Position numbers and translations under genes: made by a program. The notes under the pieces were generated by a model. That model saw nothing but the letters and a program-made list of their open reading frames with translations, ran no database searches and was not told where the DNA came from. From Marivivens sp. (GTDB taxonomy: Bacteria > Pseudomonadota > Alphaproteobacteria > Rhodobacterales > Rhodobacteraceae): 64,000 nucleotides of DNA. The stretch covers positions 186,001 to 250,000 of the forward strand of contig JAHEBU010000001.1 in assembly GCA_024642115.1 (NCBI GenBank), written 5' to 3'. This document shows positions 31,669 to 62,788 of the stretch, one piece after another; positions within the stretch are counted from its first letter, which is position 1, and each line of letters starts with the position of its first letter.

Positions 31669-32460
31669 TTATTTCGTATCAAATTCAATAACTTGCGAAG
31701 CGTTCAAACGTGAACGCCCCAAAACAGGCTCGGGCGCGCCTGCCCCTTCAAGCACCTTGAGCGGCCTGCGAACCGCCTCGCGCAGCCCGCTGGGTCGGGG
31801 CGCAGCCACCTGTTTGCTGACCTCGACCATCAACACCCCTCCGGCCGCAAAGATAGGCATCCAATGCCCCGCCTGTTCCAGAAACGGGGCCATCTTGCGC
31901 CAGATTTTCCGGTAGGACGGCGGCTGATACAGGGTCGACAGGGTCCGCTCGGTCACAAAGTCATGGCGGCGCAGCTGCGCCTCAAGCTGGCGCAGCGAAT
32001 AGGGGTGGCCGTAGCCAAAGGGGGTGCGGTCGGTCCGCGACCAGATCCCCGCCCGGTTCGGCACGATGACGACCATCCGCCCGCCCGGCCCCAAAACGCG
32101 CCACGCCTCGTCCAGCACGGCAGAGGCATGTTCGGATGTCTCAAGCCCGTGCATCATCACCAGCTTGTCCACCATCCCCGTCGGCAGCGGCCAGGCCGTT
32201 TCCTCGCACAGGACCGACACGTTGGGCTGCCCGGCAGGCCAGGGCATCACCCCCTGCGGGCCGGGCATCAGCCCGATCACCCGCCGCGCGTCGGCCAGAT
32301 AGGGACGCAGCAGCGGCACGGCAAAGCCGAACCCGGCCACCGTCTGCCCCTTTGCCTCGGGCCACAGATGAACCAGCTGATCGCGCACCACCTTCTGCGC
32401 CGCCCGCCCCAAGGGGCTGCGATAATAAAAGTTGCGCAGGTCCTGAACGTCCAGATGCAT
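31669..32460 (-). CDS. SAM-dependent methyltransferase (Methyltransf_11-like)
   Basis: A 263-residue protein starting [22 protein letters not shown]. The glycine motif is atypical ([11 protein letters not shown]), but the later parts fit a class I methyltransferase: [40 protein letters not shown]. It is divergent from gloB, an arrangement I recall as common in Rhodobacteraceae. The substrate is unknown; the weak motif I leaves some doubt that it binds SAM in the standard way. Confidence 0.83.
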
Positions 32461-32522
32461 TGCGGCCGGGGTCCCTTTGGGCGACAGTCGGGAGGATCAT
32501 AGCCATCAAAGGCGACATTGCC

Positions 32523-33290
32523 ATGCCCCTTGACCTCATCACCGTCCCTTGCCGGGTCGACAACTATGCCTTTCTGATCCACGAGTCCGCGACCGGGCAG
32601 ACCGCACTCATCGACGCGCCCGAGGTGGCTCCGATCGAGGCGGCGCTGGAGGAACGCGGATGGACGCTGACCGACATCCTCATCACCCACCACCACGACG
32701 ACCACATCGCCGGGGTCGATGCCCTGCGGGCCAAATACGGCGCGAGGGTGATCGGCGGTGCGGACGATGCGCTGCGACTGCCCCGGCTGGATCTTGAGGT
32801 GGCGGGCGGCGACACGTTCACCACCTGCGGCGCCGAGGTGTCGGTGATCGACGTGCCGGGCCACACGGTCGGCCACATCGCCTTTGACGTGCCAGCGGCG
32901 AACGCCGTCTTTACCGCAGACAGCCTGATGGCGTTGGGCTGCGGTCGGTTGTTCGAAGGGACGGCGGCACAGATGTGGGACAGCCTGAAAAAACTGCGCG
33001 CCCTGCCGGCGGAACGGCTGGTGTGTTCGGGCCACGAATACACAGCATCCAACCTGCGTTTCGCCCTGAGTATTGACCCAGACAATCGCGACCTTATCTT
33101 GCGTGGGGAAGAGATTGCCGCCGCGCGTGCCCAAGGCCGCCCCACCGTGCCATCGACACTGGACGTGGAACGACGCACCAATCCCTTTCTGCGGGCTGAC
33201 AACCCGGTGCTCAAGGCGGCCATGAACATGGCAAACGCCACCGATACCGATGTTTTTGCAGAGATCAGGGGCCGAAAAGACCGGTTCTGA
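32523..33290 (+). CDS. gloB: Hydroxyacylglutathione hydrolase (glyoxalase II)
   Basis: A 255-residue metallo-beta-lactamase-fold enzyme, hydrolysing S-lactoylglutathione to lactate and glutathione in methylglyoxal detoxification. The binuclear site motif THHHDDH is at residues 55-61, with DVPGHTVGHIAF and a CSGHEYTASNLRF motif; the C-terminal RTNPFLRAD binds glutathione. The start is the ATG at 32523; the frame is open upstream, but the family begins here. ChaC at 39976-40506 also acts on glutathione. Confidence 0.95.
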   Translation: MPLDLITVPCRVDNYAFLIHESATGQTALIDAPEVAPIEAALEERGWTLTDILITHHHDDHIAGVDALRAKYGARVIGGADDALRLPRLDLEVAGGDTFTTCGAEVSVIDVPGHTVGHIAFDVPAANAVFTADSLMALGCGRLFEGTAAQMWDSLKKLRALPAERLVCSGHEYTASNLRFALSIDPDNRDLILRGEEIAAARAQGRPTVPSTLDVERRTNPFLRADNPVLKAAMNMANATDTDVFAEIRGRKDRF

Positions 33291-46978: not shown

Positions 46979-47374
46979 CTAGGAATACGGGACCTTTTCA
47001 AAGGTCAGATAGCTCGTGTCGGGATCGTTGGACGACACCGACCAATAGACCCGGCGTCCATCATCGCCATGCAGGCACAGACGCCGTTCCAGATTGTCCT
47101 TTTGCGCGATCTGCCCATCGTCGGTAAAAACGACCGGATGACCGGTCATGTTGAAGGCCGTATCGCGCCAAGACGCCCGGTCCCCGTATTCGGCTATGGC
47201 TTTGGGGTTAACCGCCGCCGGGAAGTTATCTGACGACGCGGTCAGATAGTTCTGGGAGTCCAGAATCATGTGAACGGCAGAGTCGTCGTAGAGGATGACG
47301 TAGTTGTCGCCCGAATAGCTGAGCCAAAGAGTACCGCCAGAATGTCCCGGGTAGTTTGCTTTGAGAGTGAACAC
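46979..47374 (-). CDS. Hypothetical protein, no recognised family
   Basis: A 131-residue protein with an excellent ribosome binding site (AAAGGA, seven bases before the GTG at 47374). It is soluble and rich in aromatic residues (TLWLSYSGDNYVILYDD, DTAFNMTGHPVVFTDD, RVYWSVSSNDPDTSYLTFEKV), so probably beta-structured. No signal peptide or helix of membrane type. Codon use is less GC-biased than the surrounding genes, and it lies beside a broken sulfotransferase, so an acquired accessory gene is plausible. Confidence 0.65.
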   Translation of the reverse strand: MFTLKANYPGHSGGTLWLSYSGDNYVILYDDSAVHMILDSQNYLTASSDNFPAAVNPKAIAEYGDRASWRDTAFNMTGHPVVFTDDGQIAQKDNLERRLCLHGDDGRRVYWSVSSNDPDTSYLTFEKVPYS

Positions 47375-47693
47375 GCGTTCGTCCTTTCGTGGAATTGGAG
47401 AAAATCGAGGCTGTTTCGACTCAAACGGATTCGGCGCCTGTCGGCGCGCGTCACAAAGGCCACGGATAAATACTGAGTCTGCTTCACCAGTATCTGAAAT
47501 CCGGTAAAATCGCCACTAAATTGAAGTGACGCCAGATATATCAACCATAGAGGGTAGTCCGGGGCCTCGCGGATGCGCTGACAGGTTCGATCGGGATGCG
47601 CCGATCAGGATTTCAGCGTTCAACAGGTTCCTTTGTCAAAACGAAAAAGGCCGCGCCCTGCGGCGCGGCCTTTCGTGTCGGTGGCAAAGAACC
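47375..47693. other. Relatively AT-rich gap between the orphan gene and rpsD
   Basis: It holds the ribosome binding site and presumed promoter of the orphan gene and the rpsD terminator. AT-rich patches (GATAAATACTGAG at 47465, CCAGATATATCAACCATAG at 47531) stand out from the region. No gene is supportable. Confidence 0.5.
47644..47675 (-). terminator. Terminator of rpsD
   Basis: Perfect 12-bp stem AAAGGCCGCGCC/GGCGCGGCCTTT (47646-47657 with 47662-47673), loop CTGC, followed on the minus strand by TTCGTTTTG. It lies about 20 bases after the rpsD stop. Confidence 0.9.
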
Positions 47694-48314
47694 TTAGTTC
47701 TTGGCGTAGAATTCGACGACGAGGTTCGGTTCCATCTGGACCGGATAGGGCACATCGCCCAGACCCGGCTGGCGGACGAATTTCGCCACCATCTTGGAGT
47801 GGTCGACCTCGAGGTAATCAGGCACGTCCCGCTCGGACAGTTGGCTGGCAACCAAAACCAGTTCCATCTGCTTGGACTTCTGGCGAACCTCGATCACGTC
47901 ACCCTCTTTCACGCGGTAAGAGGGGATGTTCACGGACTGGCCGTTCACGGTGACGTGGGCGTGGTTCACGAACTGGCGGGCCGCGAAAATGGTCGGCACG
48001 AATTTCGCGCGGTAGACCACGGCGTCCAGACGACGCTCCAGCAGGCCGACGAGGTTCTCACCGGTGTCGCCCTTGAGACGCTCGGCCTCGGCATAGATGC
48101 GGCGGAACTGCTTTTCGGTCAGGTCGCCGTAGTAGCCCTTGAGTTTCTGCTTGGCGCGCAGCTGCAGGCCGAAGTCAGAGATTTTGGCCTTGCGGCGCTG
48201 GCCGTGCTGGCCGGGGCCATATTCACGCTTGTTCACCGGGGACTTTGGACGACCCCAGATGTTTTCGCCCATCCGGCGGTCAATCTTGTATTTGGCAGAG
48301 GTGCGTTTGGTCAC
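47694..48314 (-). CDS. rpsD: 30S ribosomal protein S4
   Basis: A 206-residue S4, full length for alphaproteobacteria. It begins [21 protein letters not shown], has [24 protein letters not shown], then the S4 RNA-binding domain ([33 protein letters not shown]). It nucleates 30S assembly on 16S rRNA. Here it is monocistronic with its own terminator, not in the alpha operon. Confidence 0.98.
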
Positions 48315-59418: not shown

Positions 59419-60111
59419 TCAGAGCCCAAGCAGCGATTCCAGCCGCGCCAGAACCGCCCGGTCCGCGTCCGTCCACGGGGCGCGGCGGGATTTGAACAGC
59501 GTGGCCTGACTCGCGTGGATCAACCCGTCCGACAGGACCTTGAGCCCGTTGGCCCGCAGGGTTTCCCCGGTCGAGGTGATGTCGGCCACTGCCTCTGCCG
59601 TTTCGTTCTTGACCGTCCCTTCGGTGGCCCCCTGGCTATCGACCAGCGCGTAATCGGCCACGCCATTGTCGCGCAGGAATTCCCGCACCAGCCGGTGATA
59701 TTTCGTGGCGATCCGCAGACGGAATCCGTGCCGGGCGCGAAAAGCCGCCGCCGCTGCATCCAGATCATCGAGCGTATCCACATCGACCCACATCTGCGGC
59801 ACGGCAATCACCAGATCGGCCCCACCGAACCCCATCGGGGCCAGTTCGGCCACCCGCTGATCCCAGTTCGCCAGCTTGTCACGCACCAGATCGGACCCGG
59901 TGACGCCCAGATGAACCCGCCCCAACGCCAGATCACGCGGGATCTCGCCCGCGCTCAGCAGCACCAGCTCTAGCCCGTCCAGCCCGGCGACAGCGCCTGC
60001 ATATTCCCGGTCCGACCCTGTCTTGGTCAGGCGCAGCCCCCGGTCGGCGAACCAGTCGAACGTCTTTTCCATCAGCCGCCCCTTGGACGGCACCCCCAGT
60101 TTCACGGTCAT
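59419..60111 (-). CDS. hisG: ATP phosphoribosyltransferase, short form catalytic subunit
   Basis: A 230-residue HisG of the short class that lacks the regulatory C-terminal domain and needs HisZ. It starts VKLGVPSKGRLMEKTFDWF and has ADLVIAVPQMWVDVDTLDDLDAAAAAF and LVDSQGATEGTVKNETAEAVADITSTGETLRANGL (PRPP binding). It catalyses the first step of histidine synthesis, using PRPP made by prs. The ATG overlaps the hisZ stop as ATGA. Confidence 0.96.
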   Translation of the reverse strand: MTVKLGVPSKGRLMEKTFDWFADRGLRLTKTGSDREYAGAVAGLDGLELVLLSAGEIPRDLALGRVHLGVTGSDLVRDKLANWDQRVAELAPMGFGGADLVIAVPQMWVDVDTLDDLDAAAAAFRARHGFRLRIATKYHRLVREFLRDNGVADYALVDSQGATEGTVKNETAEAVADITSTGETLRANGLKVLSDGLIHASQATLFKSRRAPWTDADRAVLARLESLLGL

Positions 60112-61190
60112 GACTGCCCCCTCAGCGCCACGACCATTTCAGGTCGGATGACGCCCCCCACCGCAGGCACGGCGCGGCCCTGCCCCAGCACCCGGGTCAG
60201 CGCGTCATAGCGCCCGCCGGTGGCCACAGGGGACAGGTCCGGGCGGCCTTCGGGGTAAAAGCCAAATACGAACCCGTCGTAGTATTCCAGCGAGGTGCGC
60301 CCGTAATTCCCCTCGAATTCAAGGTGTTCGACATCCACCCCTTGCCGTGACAGAGCCTCCATCCGCTCGGCCAGCCGGGCGGTTGCCGAAGACAGGGCGG
60401 GCATGTCCACGCCGATATCGCGCAGTTCGCTCAGCACATGGGGCATCGTTTCACGCAGCGACAGGATGGCGTCCAGCAGGTCGATCTCTTCCGCCGAAAT
60501 CGGCGGGGCGGCGGCATCGTCGTGTAGGGCCGCGATACGGGCGGCGACCTCGTCCAGCCCGCGCAGTCCGATTTCGGGACCCGCGCCGATCAGCGGGTTG
60601 TCGATCGACAACAGGGCCAGCCGACTGGGCGGCGTCGGCACGCGCCCCCCAAACCGGTCAAGCAGCGCCCGGAACCTGCGTGGCCGCCAGATGTGGCGCA
60701 GCAGGGCCGCCTTGCGGGCGTCGGTGGTCCGCAATCCCTGCACGGCGGCGGTCAGGATGCCGATATCGCCGGTGGCAGGGCGCACGGCCACCCCCTCCAA
60801 CCCCTTGGCGATGATGGCAAAAACCTCGGCGTCGGCGCGGGCGGGGGTCTGGCCGTCGAACACTTCGTAGCCCACTTGCAGATATTCGGCGGGCCGGGTT
60901 TCGTCGACCTCCTGCCGCCGGAACACCTCGCCCGAATAGGCATAGCGGGCGGGATCGGCGCGGCTTTCCATATGCATCTGCACCACGGGGACGGTAAAGT
61001 CCGGGCGCAGCATCATCTCGCCCCGCAGCGGATCGTGGGTCACATAGGCCCGCGCGCGGATATCCTCGCCGTACAAATCCAGCAGGATATCTGCGGGTTG
61101 CAGGATCGCTGCCTCGACCGGAACGGCGCCCGCTGCCGTGAACAGGTCCATCAGGCGGGCGGCCTCGGTGCGGGCGGCGGCGGGGATCAT
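60108..61190 (-). CDS. hisZ: ATP phosphoribosyltransferase regulatory subunit
   Basis: A 360-residue HisRS-like protein without tRNA-synthetase activity that activates short HisG and gives histidine feedback. Class II synthetase-like motifs: [34 protein letters not shown] and the C-terminal [14 protein letters not shown]. The ATG at 61190 overlaps the hisS stop (ATGA). Its stop overlaps hisG, so hisS-hisZ-hisG is one coupled unit. Confidence 0.95.
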
Positions 61191-62788
61191 CCCTGCCCTT
61201 TCAGGATCGCCTGCACCCGGGCCACCAGATCGTCGCGGAGCACTTCGTACTGGCTCGGGCGGTCCTTCCATTCGTCAAGACTGGCGTTCTTGGCAATCTC
61301 GGCCCCCAGGATCAGGTCCTTGATCTGCACGACGCCCTTGTCGAATTCGTCCCCGCCCGCGATCACGGCGACAGGCGAGTTGCGTTTGTCCGCATATTTA
61401 AGCTGATTTCCGAACTGTTTGGGGTTGCCCAGATAGACCTCGGCGCGGATGCCCGCGTTCCGCAGGTCGGCCACCATCGTCTGATAGTCGGCCATGCGGG
61501 CGCGGTCCATGACGGTGACGACGACGGGGCCTGGGGCCACCTGCCCCCCCACGCGCCCCTTGGCCCGCAGGGCGGCCAACAGACGGTCAACCCCGATGGA
61601 TACTCCCGTCGCCGGCACCTCTTGCCCGGTGAACCGCTTGACCAGATCGTCATAGCGGCCACCGCCGGCGACCGAGCCGAATTGCTGCTTGCGGCCCTTG
61701 TCGTCGATAATCTCGAATGTCAATTCCGCCTCGAACACCGGGCCGGTATAGTAGCCAAGGCCACGCACGACCGAGGGGTCGATACGGATACGCTCAGGCC
61801 CATATCCCTGCAAATTCAATAGTTCTGCGATTTCTGACAATTCCGCGACACCGTCCTGACCTACTTTTGACGCCCCGACAATATTGCGAAGGTATGTCAG
61901 CATTCGATCTTTGAATTCGTGAGGATGTGCCATGACAACGCGTAGATTGTCTGGAGCCCAACTATCACCCGCATCGTCGGGAAAGTCCTCGACTAATTGT
62001 GTTACAACACGGGTCGTCGCAGCGACAAAACCCATGACAATTTCAACTTGTTCTCGGCCTAAGCCAGCACCTTCGGTAAAGTCGCCGCTTTCGTCTCGAC
62101 GTCCTGCTTGCAACAACTGCGCGACACCGTACGGCCCGAGACGATCAACCTTGTCAATAGCGCGAAGGACAATGCCACGCTCTTCCTTGAAACGATCAGG
62201 ATCGTTGGGGTCGAGAACGCCTGCCATTTCCATGACCCCGTTCAGAACCTTGCGATTATTGACCTTGACCACATAGTCCCCGCGGGCAATCCCCACCGCC
62301 TCGAGCGTGTCGGACAGCATCGCACAAATCTCGGCGTCCGCTGCCACCGATGCCGCACCGACTGTATCCGCATCGCACTGATAGAACTGGCGAAACCGGC
62401 CCGGACCGGGCTTTTCGTTCCGCCAGACCGGACCCATTGCATAACGGCGATAGGGGGTCGGCAGGTCGTTGCGGTGCTGGGCATAAACGCGGGCGAGAGG
62501 CGCGGTCAGGTCATAGCGGAGCGCCAGCCAGTCGCCCTTGTCCTTGTCGTCGAACTCTTGCCAGGCAAACACGCCTTCATTCGGGCGGTCCACGTCGGGC
62601 AGGAACTTACCCAGCGCCTCGACCGTCTCGACCGCACTCGTTTCCAGCGCGTCGAACCCATAGCGATGATAGACCCCGGCGATCTGCGCCAGCATCTGCG
62701 ACCGGTCGGTCACGTCCGATCCGAAATAATCGCGGAACCCCTTGGGCGTTTCGGCCTTGGGGCGGGGGGTCTTGGTGTCCTTGGCCAT
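61187..62788 (-). CDS. hisS: Histidine-tRNA ligase
   Basis: A 533-residue class II synthetase charging tRNA-His. Motifs: [16 protein letters not shown] (motif 2 region), [49 protein letters not shown] and the anticodon-binding tail ([10 protein letters not shown]-like [14 protein letters not shown]). I chose the ATG at 62788 ([22 protein letters not shown]). Residues about 185-340 (roughly 61770-62260) have clearly lower GC and codons rare elsewhere in the window, while the protein stays normal; see findings. Confidence 0.95.

Follow-up and report, generated by a model that had tools for sequence, protein, structure and literature searches.

Mosaic housekeeping alleles arise by the import of diverged segments, as in penA of Neisseria, and the target-recognition domains of hsdS are variable cassettes held between conserved frames. 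Large phages, for their part, carry translation genes that include aminoacyl-tRNA synthetases, and one study is said to have treated ribosomal proteins in this context. The hisS locus described here touches on all three. With the penA mosaics it shares what appears to be a sharp segment replacement, of foreign composition, in a conserved essential gene, but here dozens of unrelated alleles sit at a fixed aminoacyl-tRNA synthetase domain, a situation found in more than one family, and there is no known selecting drug. With hsdS it shares a conserved frame and an exchangeable cassette common to distant hosts, whereas the domain in question belongs to an essential translation enzyme and is not a DNA-specificity module. 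The likeness to phage-borne translation genes lies in a phage contig with hisS and tyrS, and the difference in a phage hisS that is close to the Rhodobacteraceae type, with an AT-rich and mildly altered insertion domain. Specifically, we read the low-GC patch in this gene as the product of recurrent recombinational swapping of the insertion domain of histidyl-tRNA synthetase (HisRS), perhaps driven by an antagonist, and give this reading a probability of roughly 0.6.

A eukaryote-derived HisRS is proposed for the RRCH clade, an alphaproteobacterial group with a derived tRNAHis (PMC3937112). Our gene agrees with the HisRS (TIGR00442) of that clade in sequence family, class II core, anticodon domain and gene order, and differs in an apparently swappable, hypervariable insertion domain, of which we found no description for the clade; more generally, no published description of a variable or recombining HisRS insertion domain, or of such an aminoacyl-tRNA synthetase, was found among the titles and abstract openings of the open-access papers searched.

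The window, i.e., the whole stretch of 64,000 nucleotides from Marivivens sp. that was analysed, carries hisS and hisZ (Table 1), the hisZ start overlapping the hisS stop as ATGA. The annotation of Cereibacter sphaeroides has hisS then hisZ in the same order, within a dnaE-slyX-hisS-hisZ arrangement. The hisS start is presumably the ATG common to relatives; the fuller reading frame encodes 584 aa. Its product scores 371.8 bits against the TIGR00442 hisS equivalog model (cut-off 286.75), domain searches place both the class II core and the anticodon domain in it, and many columns are invariant among 80 proteins at residues 119–144 and 338–355, which we take to be motif 2 and the HisA-type motif, respectively. 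By sequence, the gene is an intact HisRS (histidine–tRNA ligase). Free variation in it is surprising, because PMC5513736 counts hisS among the essential genes of R. sphaeroides.

Table 1. Features of the hisS locus, in positions of the window.
Feature	Position	Strand	Extent and basis
hisS (histidyl-tRNA synthetase)	61187..62788	-	533 aa, stop included in the coordinates; ORF and NCBIfam TIGR00442 (E 4e-111)
N-terminal part of hisS	62204..62788	-	conserved, GC3 normal; alignment, GC3 fit
Low-GC3 patch	61784..62203	-	residues 196–335; two-breakpoint GC3 fit, GC profile
Loop 1 insertion site	62189..62221	-	~residues 190–200, normal length in the window gene
Variable cassette	61784..62074	-	residues 239–335, long allele of 97 aa; SGDFT and IDPSVVRGL as anchors
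Loop 2 insertion site, hypervariable core	61898..62020	-	~residues 257–297; alignment, AlphaFold2 model
RGLGYYTGP (HisA-type motif)	61739..61765	-	residues 342–350, close behind the cassette; no variation among 80 aligned proteins
hisZ (ATP phosphoribosyltransferase regulatory subunit)	60108..61190	-	downstream of hisS; ORF, sequence, NCBIfam NF008952 (E 3e-170)

The first-pass annotation had reported a low-GC stretch with odd codons inside hisS, and both the GC profile and a GC3 fit confirm it; its hand counts of 26, 29 and 36 G+C in 60 nucleotides were reproduced exactly on recounting. GC reaches a minimum of 0.500 at 61780–62019 (240-bp windows) and lies at ~0.60–0.70 on both sides. In the two-breakpoint fit, GC3 is 0.44 within residues 196–335 and 0.80 elsewhere in the gene (log likelihood ratio 30.3), and a fit on a coarser grid gave 28.2, compared with a maximum of 13.0 in 200 shuffles of codon order. 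The 100-codon GC3 drop of hisS (-0.36) is the strongest among 46 mechanically chosen ORFs of the window; the codon-order permutation and this comparison rule out chance composition. Of the codons named there, TTA, CTA and CGA are confined to the patch within hisS, and so is TCA (2–3 copies each). AGT, also named, shows no enrichment (1/140 inside, 2/393 outside), and CAA stands at 3/140 vs. 3/393. Both edges had been called abrupt. This holds for the 3′ edge, at residue 335 just before IDPSVVRGL, but the 5′ side is stepwise, with GC3 declining over residues 181–260 and smaller dips already at 101–120 and 141–160.

An initial search of 61 genomes split most family matches in two near residues 310–347 of the 584-aa frame, which led to the discovery of a variable cassette between the SGDFT and IDPSVVRGL anchors. 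We compared 201 distinct hisS genes of Rhodobacteraceae type, of which one comes from a phage and 200 are bacterial (the window's among them). The nearest named relatives of the family to which the window's genome belongs are Rhodobacteraceae-type species, and the set of genomes has no other species of its genus. The cassette is exactly 66 aa long in 142 of them and 79–120 aa long in the other 59, with a long/short threshold (73 aa) that was chosen after the data were seen. The starting loci were the best 80 among the matches listed, later genes were mostly picked by decreasing similarity to the window cassette, and 20 genes of a second family (f70, below) were picked as long-looking; because of this sampling by similarity, the counts given here are not population frequencies. 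Set aside before counting were six loci (the window itself or side matches), ten duplicates and nine genes without anchors, some of which, such as L160, looked long.

Length and composition go together. Cassette-minus-flank GC3 is -0.256 for the 59 long forms vs. -0.022 for the 142 short ones (p 4e-25, with relatedness ignored), and the window gene is third lowest of the 201. A cassette GC3 of >0.10 below the flanks, a threshold fixed after seeing the data, occurs in 58/59 long and 18/142 short forms. In a first alignment, 33 long forms had a mean GC3 0.25–0.31 below their flanks at residues 241–320, recovering on both sides, compared with at most 0.06 for 77 "short" rows, four of which are actually long (L006, L055, L064 and L114, whose inserts fell in sparse columns). 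The long/short split is not an artefact of misalignment, as it holds on anchor-based lengths.

The domain accepts insertions at a second place. Loop 1, following NNRKVLNG, is enlarged in 7/198 genes scored at the level of the whole domain, to 69–82 aa between NNRK and the SGDFT anchor vs. 55–62 in plain forms, and slightly in the phage copy. For this scoring, which left out L116, L107 and L200, a loop 1 threshold of 65 aa was set post hoc. Whole-domain GC3 fell >0.10 below the flanks in all seven genes with an insertion at loop 1, in 55/59 with one at loop 2 and in 2/132 with neither; the exceptions are L028 and L203, which dip without an insertion, and L064, L087, L144 and L008, which have an insertion and no dip. 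Taken together, 66/198 genes (the window's included) have an insertion at loop 1 or loop 2, and the domain is AT-rich in 62 of these 66. No gene has both (0/198), an absence that is not significant, as only ~2 were expected from the counts. The composition of the patch, whose presence in all close relatives the first-pass annotation had named as an outcome that would refute its proposal, is largely confined to long or inserted alleles.

The history of the long cassettes departs from that of the genes around them. Cassette and flank identity are correlated among short forms (r = 0.54, 1500 sampled pairs) and not among long ones (r = 0.06, 1711 pairs), for which mean cassette identity is ~0.37 at any flank identity. 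At a cut-off of 40% core identity, decided after viewing the data, the 59 long cassettes form 47 classes, of which 39 are singletons and eight have two to four members. One of the eight (L036, L067, L082) is found in close hosts and was outside the clade tests; the hosts of the other seven are not close to one another. On the flanks, a clade was rejected for six of the seven (L120/L121/L123/L144, L009/L168, L043/L167, L124/L137, L046/L134 and L047/L049; p-AU 2.9e-59 to 0.0025, computed on 40 selected rows with a quickly built tree and a non-mixture model), and vertical descent was compatible with the data for L008/L111 (p-AU 0.24, third member L133 left out). In most of the shared classes tested, inner segment and flanks therefore differ in genealogy, as in a mosaic gene, contrary to the single tree for all segments that the first-pass annotation had named as refuting its proposal. 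Many rare alleles at one site, together with classes common to several hosts, also fit what arms-race diversification of a target would leave.

When the long/short state was placed on the flank tree (198 rows, 3/201 having been dropped by length), 40 changes were required, at least 14 of them forced by well supported branches, vs. a mean of 49.5 after shuffling; of 500 shuffles, 0 to 1 required so few. This clustering implies that alleles are also inherited for some time, besides being swapped. Within a class, copies appear to be under constraint as proteins: cassette identity is 96% for L067/L082 and 66% for L043/L167, and codon position 3 differs more than positions 1 and 2 in 12/12 same-class pairs, by a test that is rough, such pairs being far diverged. 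For the window gene itself, the nearest flank neighbor is L168 (sister support 96 in the 198-row tree, 44 in the 40-row one), whose cassette belongs to the class of L009, different from the window's; DNA identity between the two genes falls to 33–43% at residues 261–320.

Close relatives bring out the replaced segment most directly. Limimaricola soesokkakensis (long) and its two short congeners have ~91% DNA identity in the flanks and 41–43% at residues 301–320, with a similar pattern in Roseobacter (L092/L096), Rhodovulum (L078/L114) and Donghicola (L044/L055). The sharpest contrast is seen beyond the family, in Shinella, where two plasmid-collection records (L283 1001–2626 and L284 1001–2488) encode HisRS that differ mainly by a wholesale replacement of ~residues 181–340. 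Between Shinella zoogloeoides Teo12 and Shinella sp. PSBB067, DNA identity is 96% outside, and 47% inside, this segment; per 10 codons, identity is 90–100% up to codon 180, 30–73% where alignable over 181–340, and 86–100% after that. GC3 in Teo12 is 0.28–0.47 in most of the segment and 0.81–0.97 outside. The C-side edge lies directly before IDPSVVRGL in Teo12 and in the window gene alike, and the N-side edge ~7 residues past the start of NNRK in Teo12 and ~19 in the window gene (GC3 fit).

The Shinella protein matched 116/119 genomes of family f70, which we infer, from identities of 59–76%, to be of Rhizobiales type. In 15 of these genomes the match at E 1e-100 was confined to the N-terminal part, and the domain was long in 15/15 (144–170 aa); among the other 50 genes scored, it measured 107–134 aa in 47 and 140–149 in three (5/72 genes without anchors were left out of the scoring). 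A GC3 drop of at least 0.10 was found in 12/15 long genes and was absent from L350, L352 and L354, and eight of the other 50 dropped by at least 0.19 (L335, L346, L364, L368, L373, L376, L377, L378), so that length and composition are not strictly tied in f70. The inside was less identical than the outside in 37/38 within-genus pairs, though the domain is in any case the more variable part; the pairs of g544 and g531 have one allele in common. A long domain without a dip (GC3 0.75–0.77 inside, 0.72–0.76 outside) is common to L352 and L354, which represent two species of the same genus; it is apparently an old and ameliorated allele. Two further families, with matches in 26/31 and 30/31 genomes, showed no such expansion: their 53 measured cassettes (3/56 loci were left out) are 53–80 aa long, with an anchor up to 7 aa longer, although several moderate GC3 drops occur, to ~0.18 (e.g., L239, L244, L250).

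The first-pass annotation had proposed homologous replacement by a lower-GC donor. Replacement is supported, as the patch coincides with a region swapped between alleles across the family, with flanks of other ancestry; the single event does not suffice, because numerous genera, and f70 besides, have unrelated, mostly AT-rich alleles. No donor of the window allele was found. A single neutral replacement, confined to this lineage, without broader significance and with a lower-GC relative as the donor, has in its favor a clear, local composition patch between flanks of host composition. We consider it unlikely in view of the AT-rich insertions at two sites counted above and of the like behavior of f70. 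Moreover, the comparisons turned up no similar allele in a low-GC relative: the nearest cassette among the 201 genes is 46% identical to the window's, and a scan of 295 family genomes yielded 49% at best over the full cassette length.

An AlphaFold2 model built with 80 relatives has a mean pLDDT of 83.7, with 90–98 per ten-residue block over residues 241–340 except at the tip (71 at 271–280), and places helices at 245–255, 257–268, 282–287, 289–304 and 308–326; as modelled, the insert is a mostly ordered helical subdomain. All 50 Foldseek matches listed were HisRS (E down to 2.4e-29), with TM scores normalised by query of only 0.42–0.53 and residues 51–90 poorly modelled. A known domain in the insert was rejected, three cassette-containing stretches having no Pfam match up to E 1.

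Such a subdomain could also co-adapt with tRNAHis, with histidine sensing or with some other lineage-specific partner, alleles travelling for that reason. Published work lends this some substance: the HisRS insertion domain moves upon histidine binding (PMC4335047), the clade to which Rhodobacteraceae and Rhizobiales belong is unusual in having a tRNAHis that lacks G-1 (PMC3937112), and an unusual tRNAHis is described for Caulobacter (PMC3875453). Our own pattern search recovered tRNAHis in 0/23 genomes; a second pattern gave 11 matches in 4/8 genomes, with no tRNAHis by ARAGORN. However, it is difficult to see how the 59 long genes, with their 47 unrelated classes, would all suit a conserved tRNA, and we hold co-adaptation to be improbable.

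It is likewise quite improbable that a surface loop has simply drifted in place, gaining and losing residues while its codon usage decayed under relaxed selection and without recombination. The hypervariable tip, a GC3 that is lowest at the insertion and graded on the 5′ side, the lack of exact donors and the partial clustering of long and short forms on the flank tree would all suit such drift. On the contrary, classes common to distant hosts conflict with the flanks (6/7), members of close pairs are wholly different inside flanks that are 86–96% identical in DNA, classes keep their protein sequence, the model is ordered, and the plain form has one fixed length. Least probable of all is that AT-rich, slow codons were selected to aid the folding of a larger inserted subdomain during translation, since, strongly as insertion is tied to low GC3 at both sites, dipless long alleles exist (L064; L352/L354, kept in a genus) and the dip reaches into conserved neighboring residues.

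These patterns leave recurrent recombinational swapping of the domain as the highly probable part of our reading. The window patch would be one allele among a large stock of HisRS insertion domains that can be exchanged. In the Rhodobacteraceae-type genes and in f70, the domain, lying between motif 2 and the HisA motif, tracks the rest of the gene in its plain form; its long forms are many and unrelated, with an insertion at one of two loops, usually AT-rich, sharp-edged in close pairs and with a history unlike that of the flanks. Donors may be AT-rich, mobile DNA with diverged hisS copies, and homologous recombination in the conserved flanks would move the domain.

One source of such copies may be phage. 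An IMG/VR contig of 29.7 kb (IMGVR_UViG_3300025759_000462) encodes a HisRS (TIGR00442) and a TyrRS (TIGR00234). The hisS/tyrS pair (L399 10001–13076) has 0.53–0.60 GC per kb vs. 0.33–0.46 around it, and lies among families of UvsX-like recombinase, DnaB-like helicase, thymidylate synthase and PhoH-like proteins, with further neighbors from endolysin, exonuclease and DNA methyltransferase families; we infer a T4-like phage. Neither dnaE, slyX nor hisZ was recognised among the ORFs listed for the contig. In their best-matching segment, the phage HisRS and that of the window share 68% identity. GC3 is 0.25–0.65 in the first five 20-codon windows of its insertion domain vs. 0.77 and 0.72 outside, and its loop 1, unlike others in sequence, is 65 aa long, 3 above the longest plain form. 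We take this gene to be of host origin, captured by the phage and altered in its insertion domain, and to exemplify hisS travelling in AT-rich mobile DNA. It also bears against our reading, as the only phage hisS of Rhodobacteraceae type found, with a loop 1 that is barely longer: scans for hisS and tyrS in IMG/VR viral contigs found no second one and returned otherwise two contigs matching the phage tyrS and two matches that are not hisS, and a search of phage records gave 18 matches with identities of at most 33.1%. Three further IMG/VR contigs (L434, L435, L437; 37–41% GC, two incomplete as read) carry a Rhizobiales-looking plain hisS and are possibly host DNA beside prophages.

The antagonist as driver of the swapping is the more tentative part, which we put at somewhat less than even. 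A phage host-takeover protein, a toxin or a defence effector might dock on the domain surface; rare surface variants could then be favored, turning alleles over while catalysis is kept intact. We know of no antagonist that binds the HisRS insertion domain, and none was identified in this analysis. A defence-system family was rejected, PADLOC having no match for three synthetases, and trifolitoxin, considered as a candidate, was set aside, HisRS not being mentioned in the titles and abstract openings of the papers listed. A broader version is doubtful, though worth stating: the HisRS domain of Rhodobacteraceae and related Alphaproteobacteria may be the contested surface of an unrecognised translation weapon wielded by phages or rivals, with hosts importing unrelated tips at either loop, at least one phage protecting its own translation by a HisRS of changed domain (and a TyrRS) of its own, and low GC as the footprint of mobile, perhaps phage-borne, hisS that recombines with the chromosome.

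An essential translation enzyme behaving like a variable surface antigen is unexpected. If the antagonist is real, some antibacterial or phage mechanism that is yet to be discovered would be aimed at HisRS, and the natural variants of the allele library would serve for finding it. A GC3 dip within a housekeeping gene is a suggested signature for contested domains in other genes, and whole hisS calls for caution as a phylogenetic marker in these groups. As a control, tyrS had a mean largest GC3 drop of 0.11 (23 genes), compared with 0.26 for long and 0.12 for short hisS. It was rejected as a second contested gene, with no dip in most of 22 relatives; its drops of 0.25 (phage copy) and 0.21 (L420) are C-terminal.

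Two further features of the window's composition were seen. The second-strongest GC3 drop among its ORFs (-0.32) belongs to 32136–33287, where the low-GC3 stretch is N-terminal; this ORF is probably overlong at its start, because its first Pfam match (metallo-beta-lactamase superfamily, then HAGH_C) begins only at residue 152. Separately, 47131–47760 is AT-rich (GC to 0.503 in 300 bp), with minus-strand ORFs of 131 and 92 aa, and adjoins a ribosomal protein S4-like gene, named by eye, at 47694–48314.
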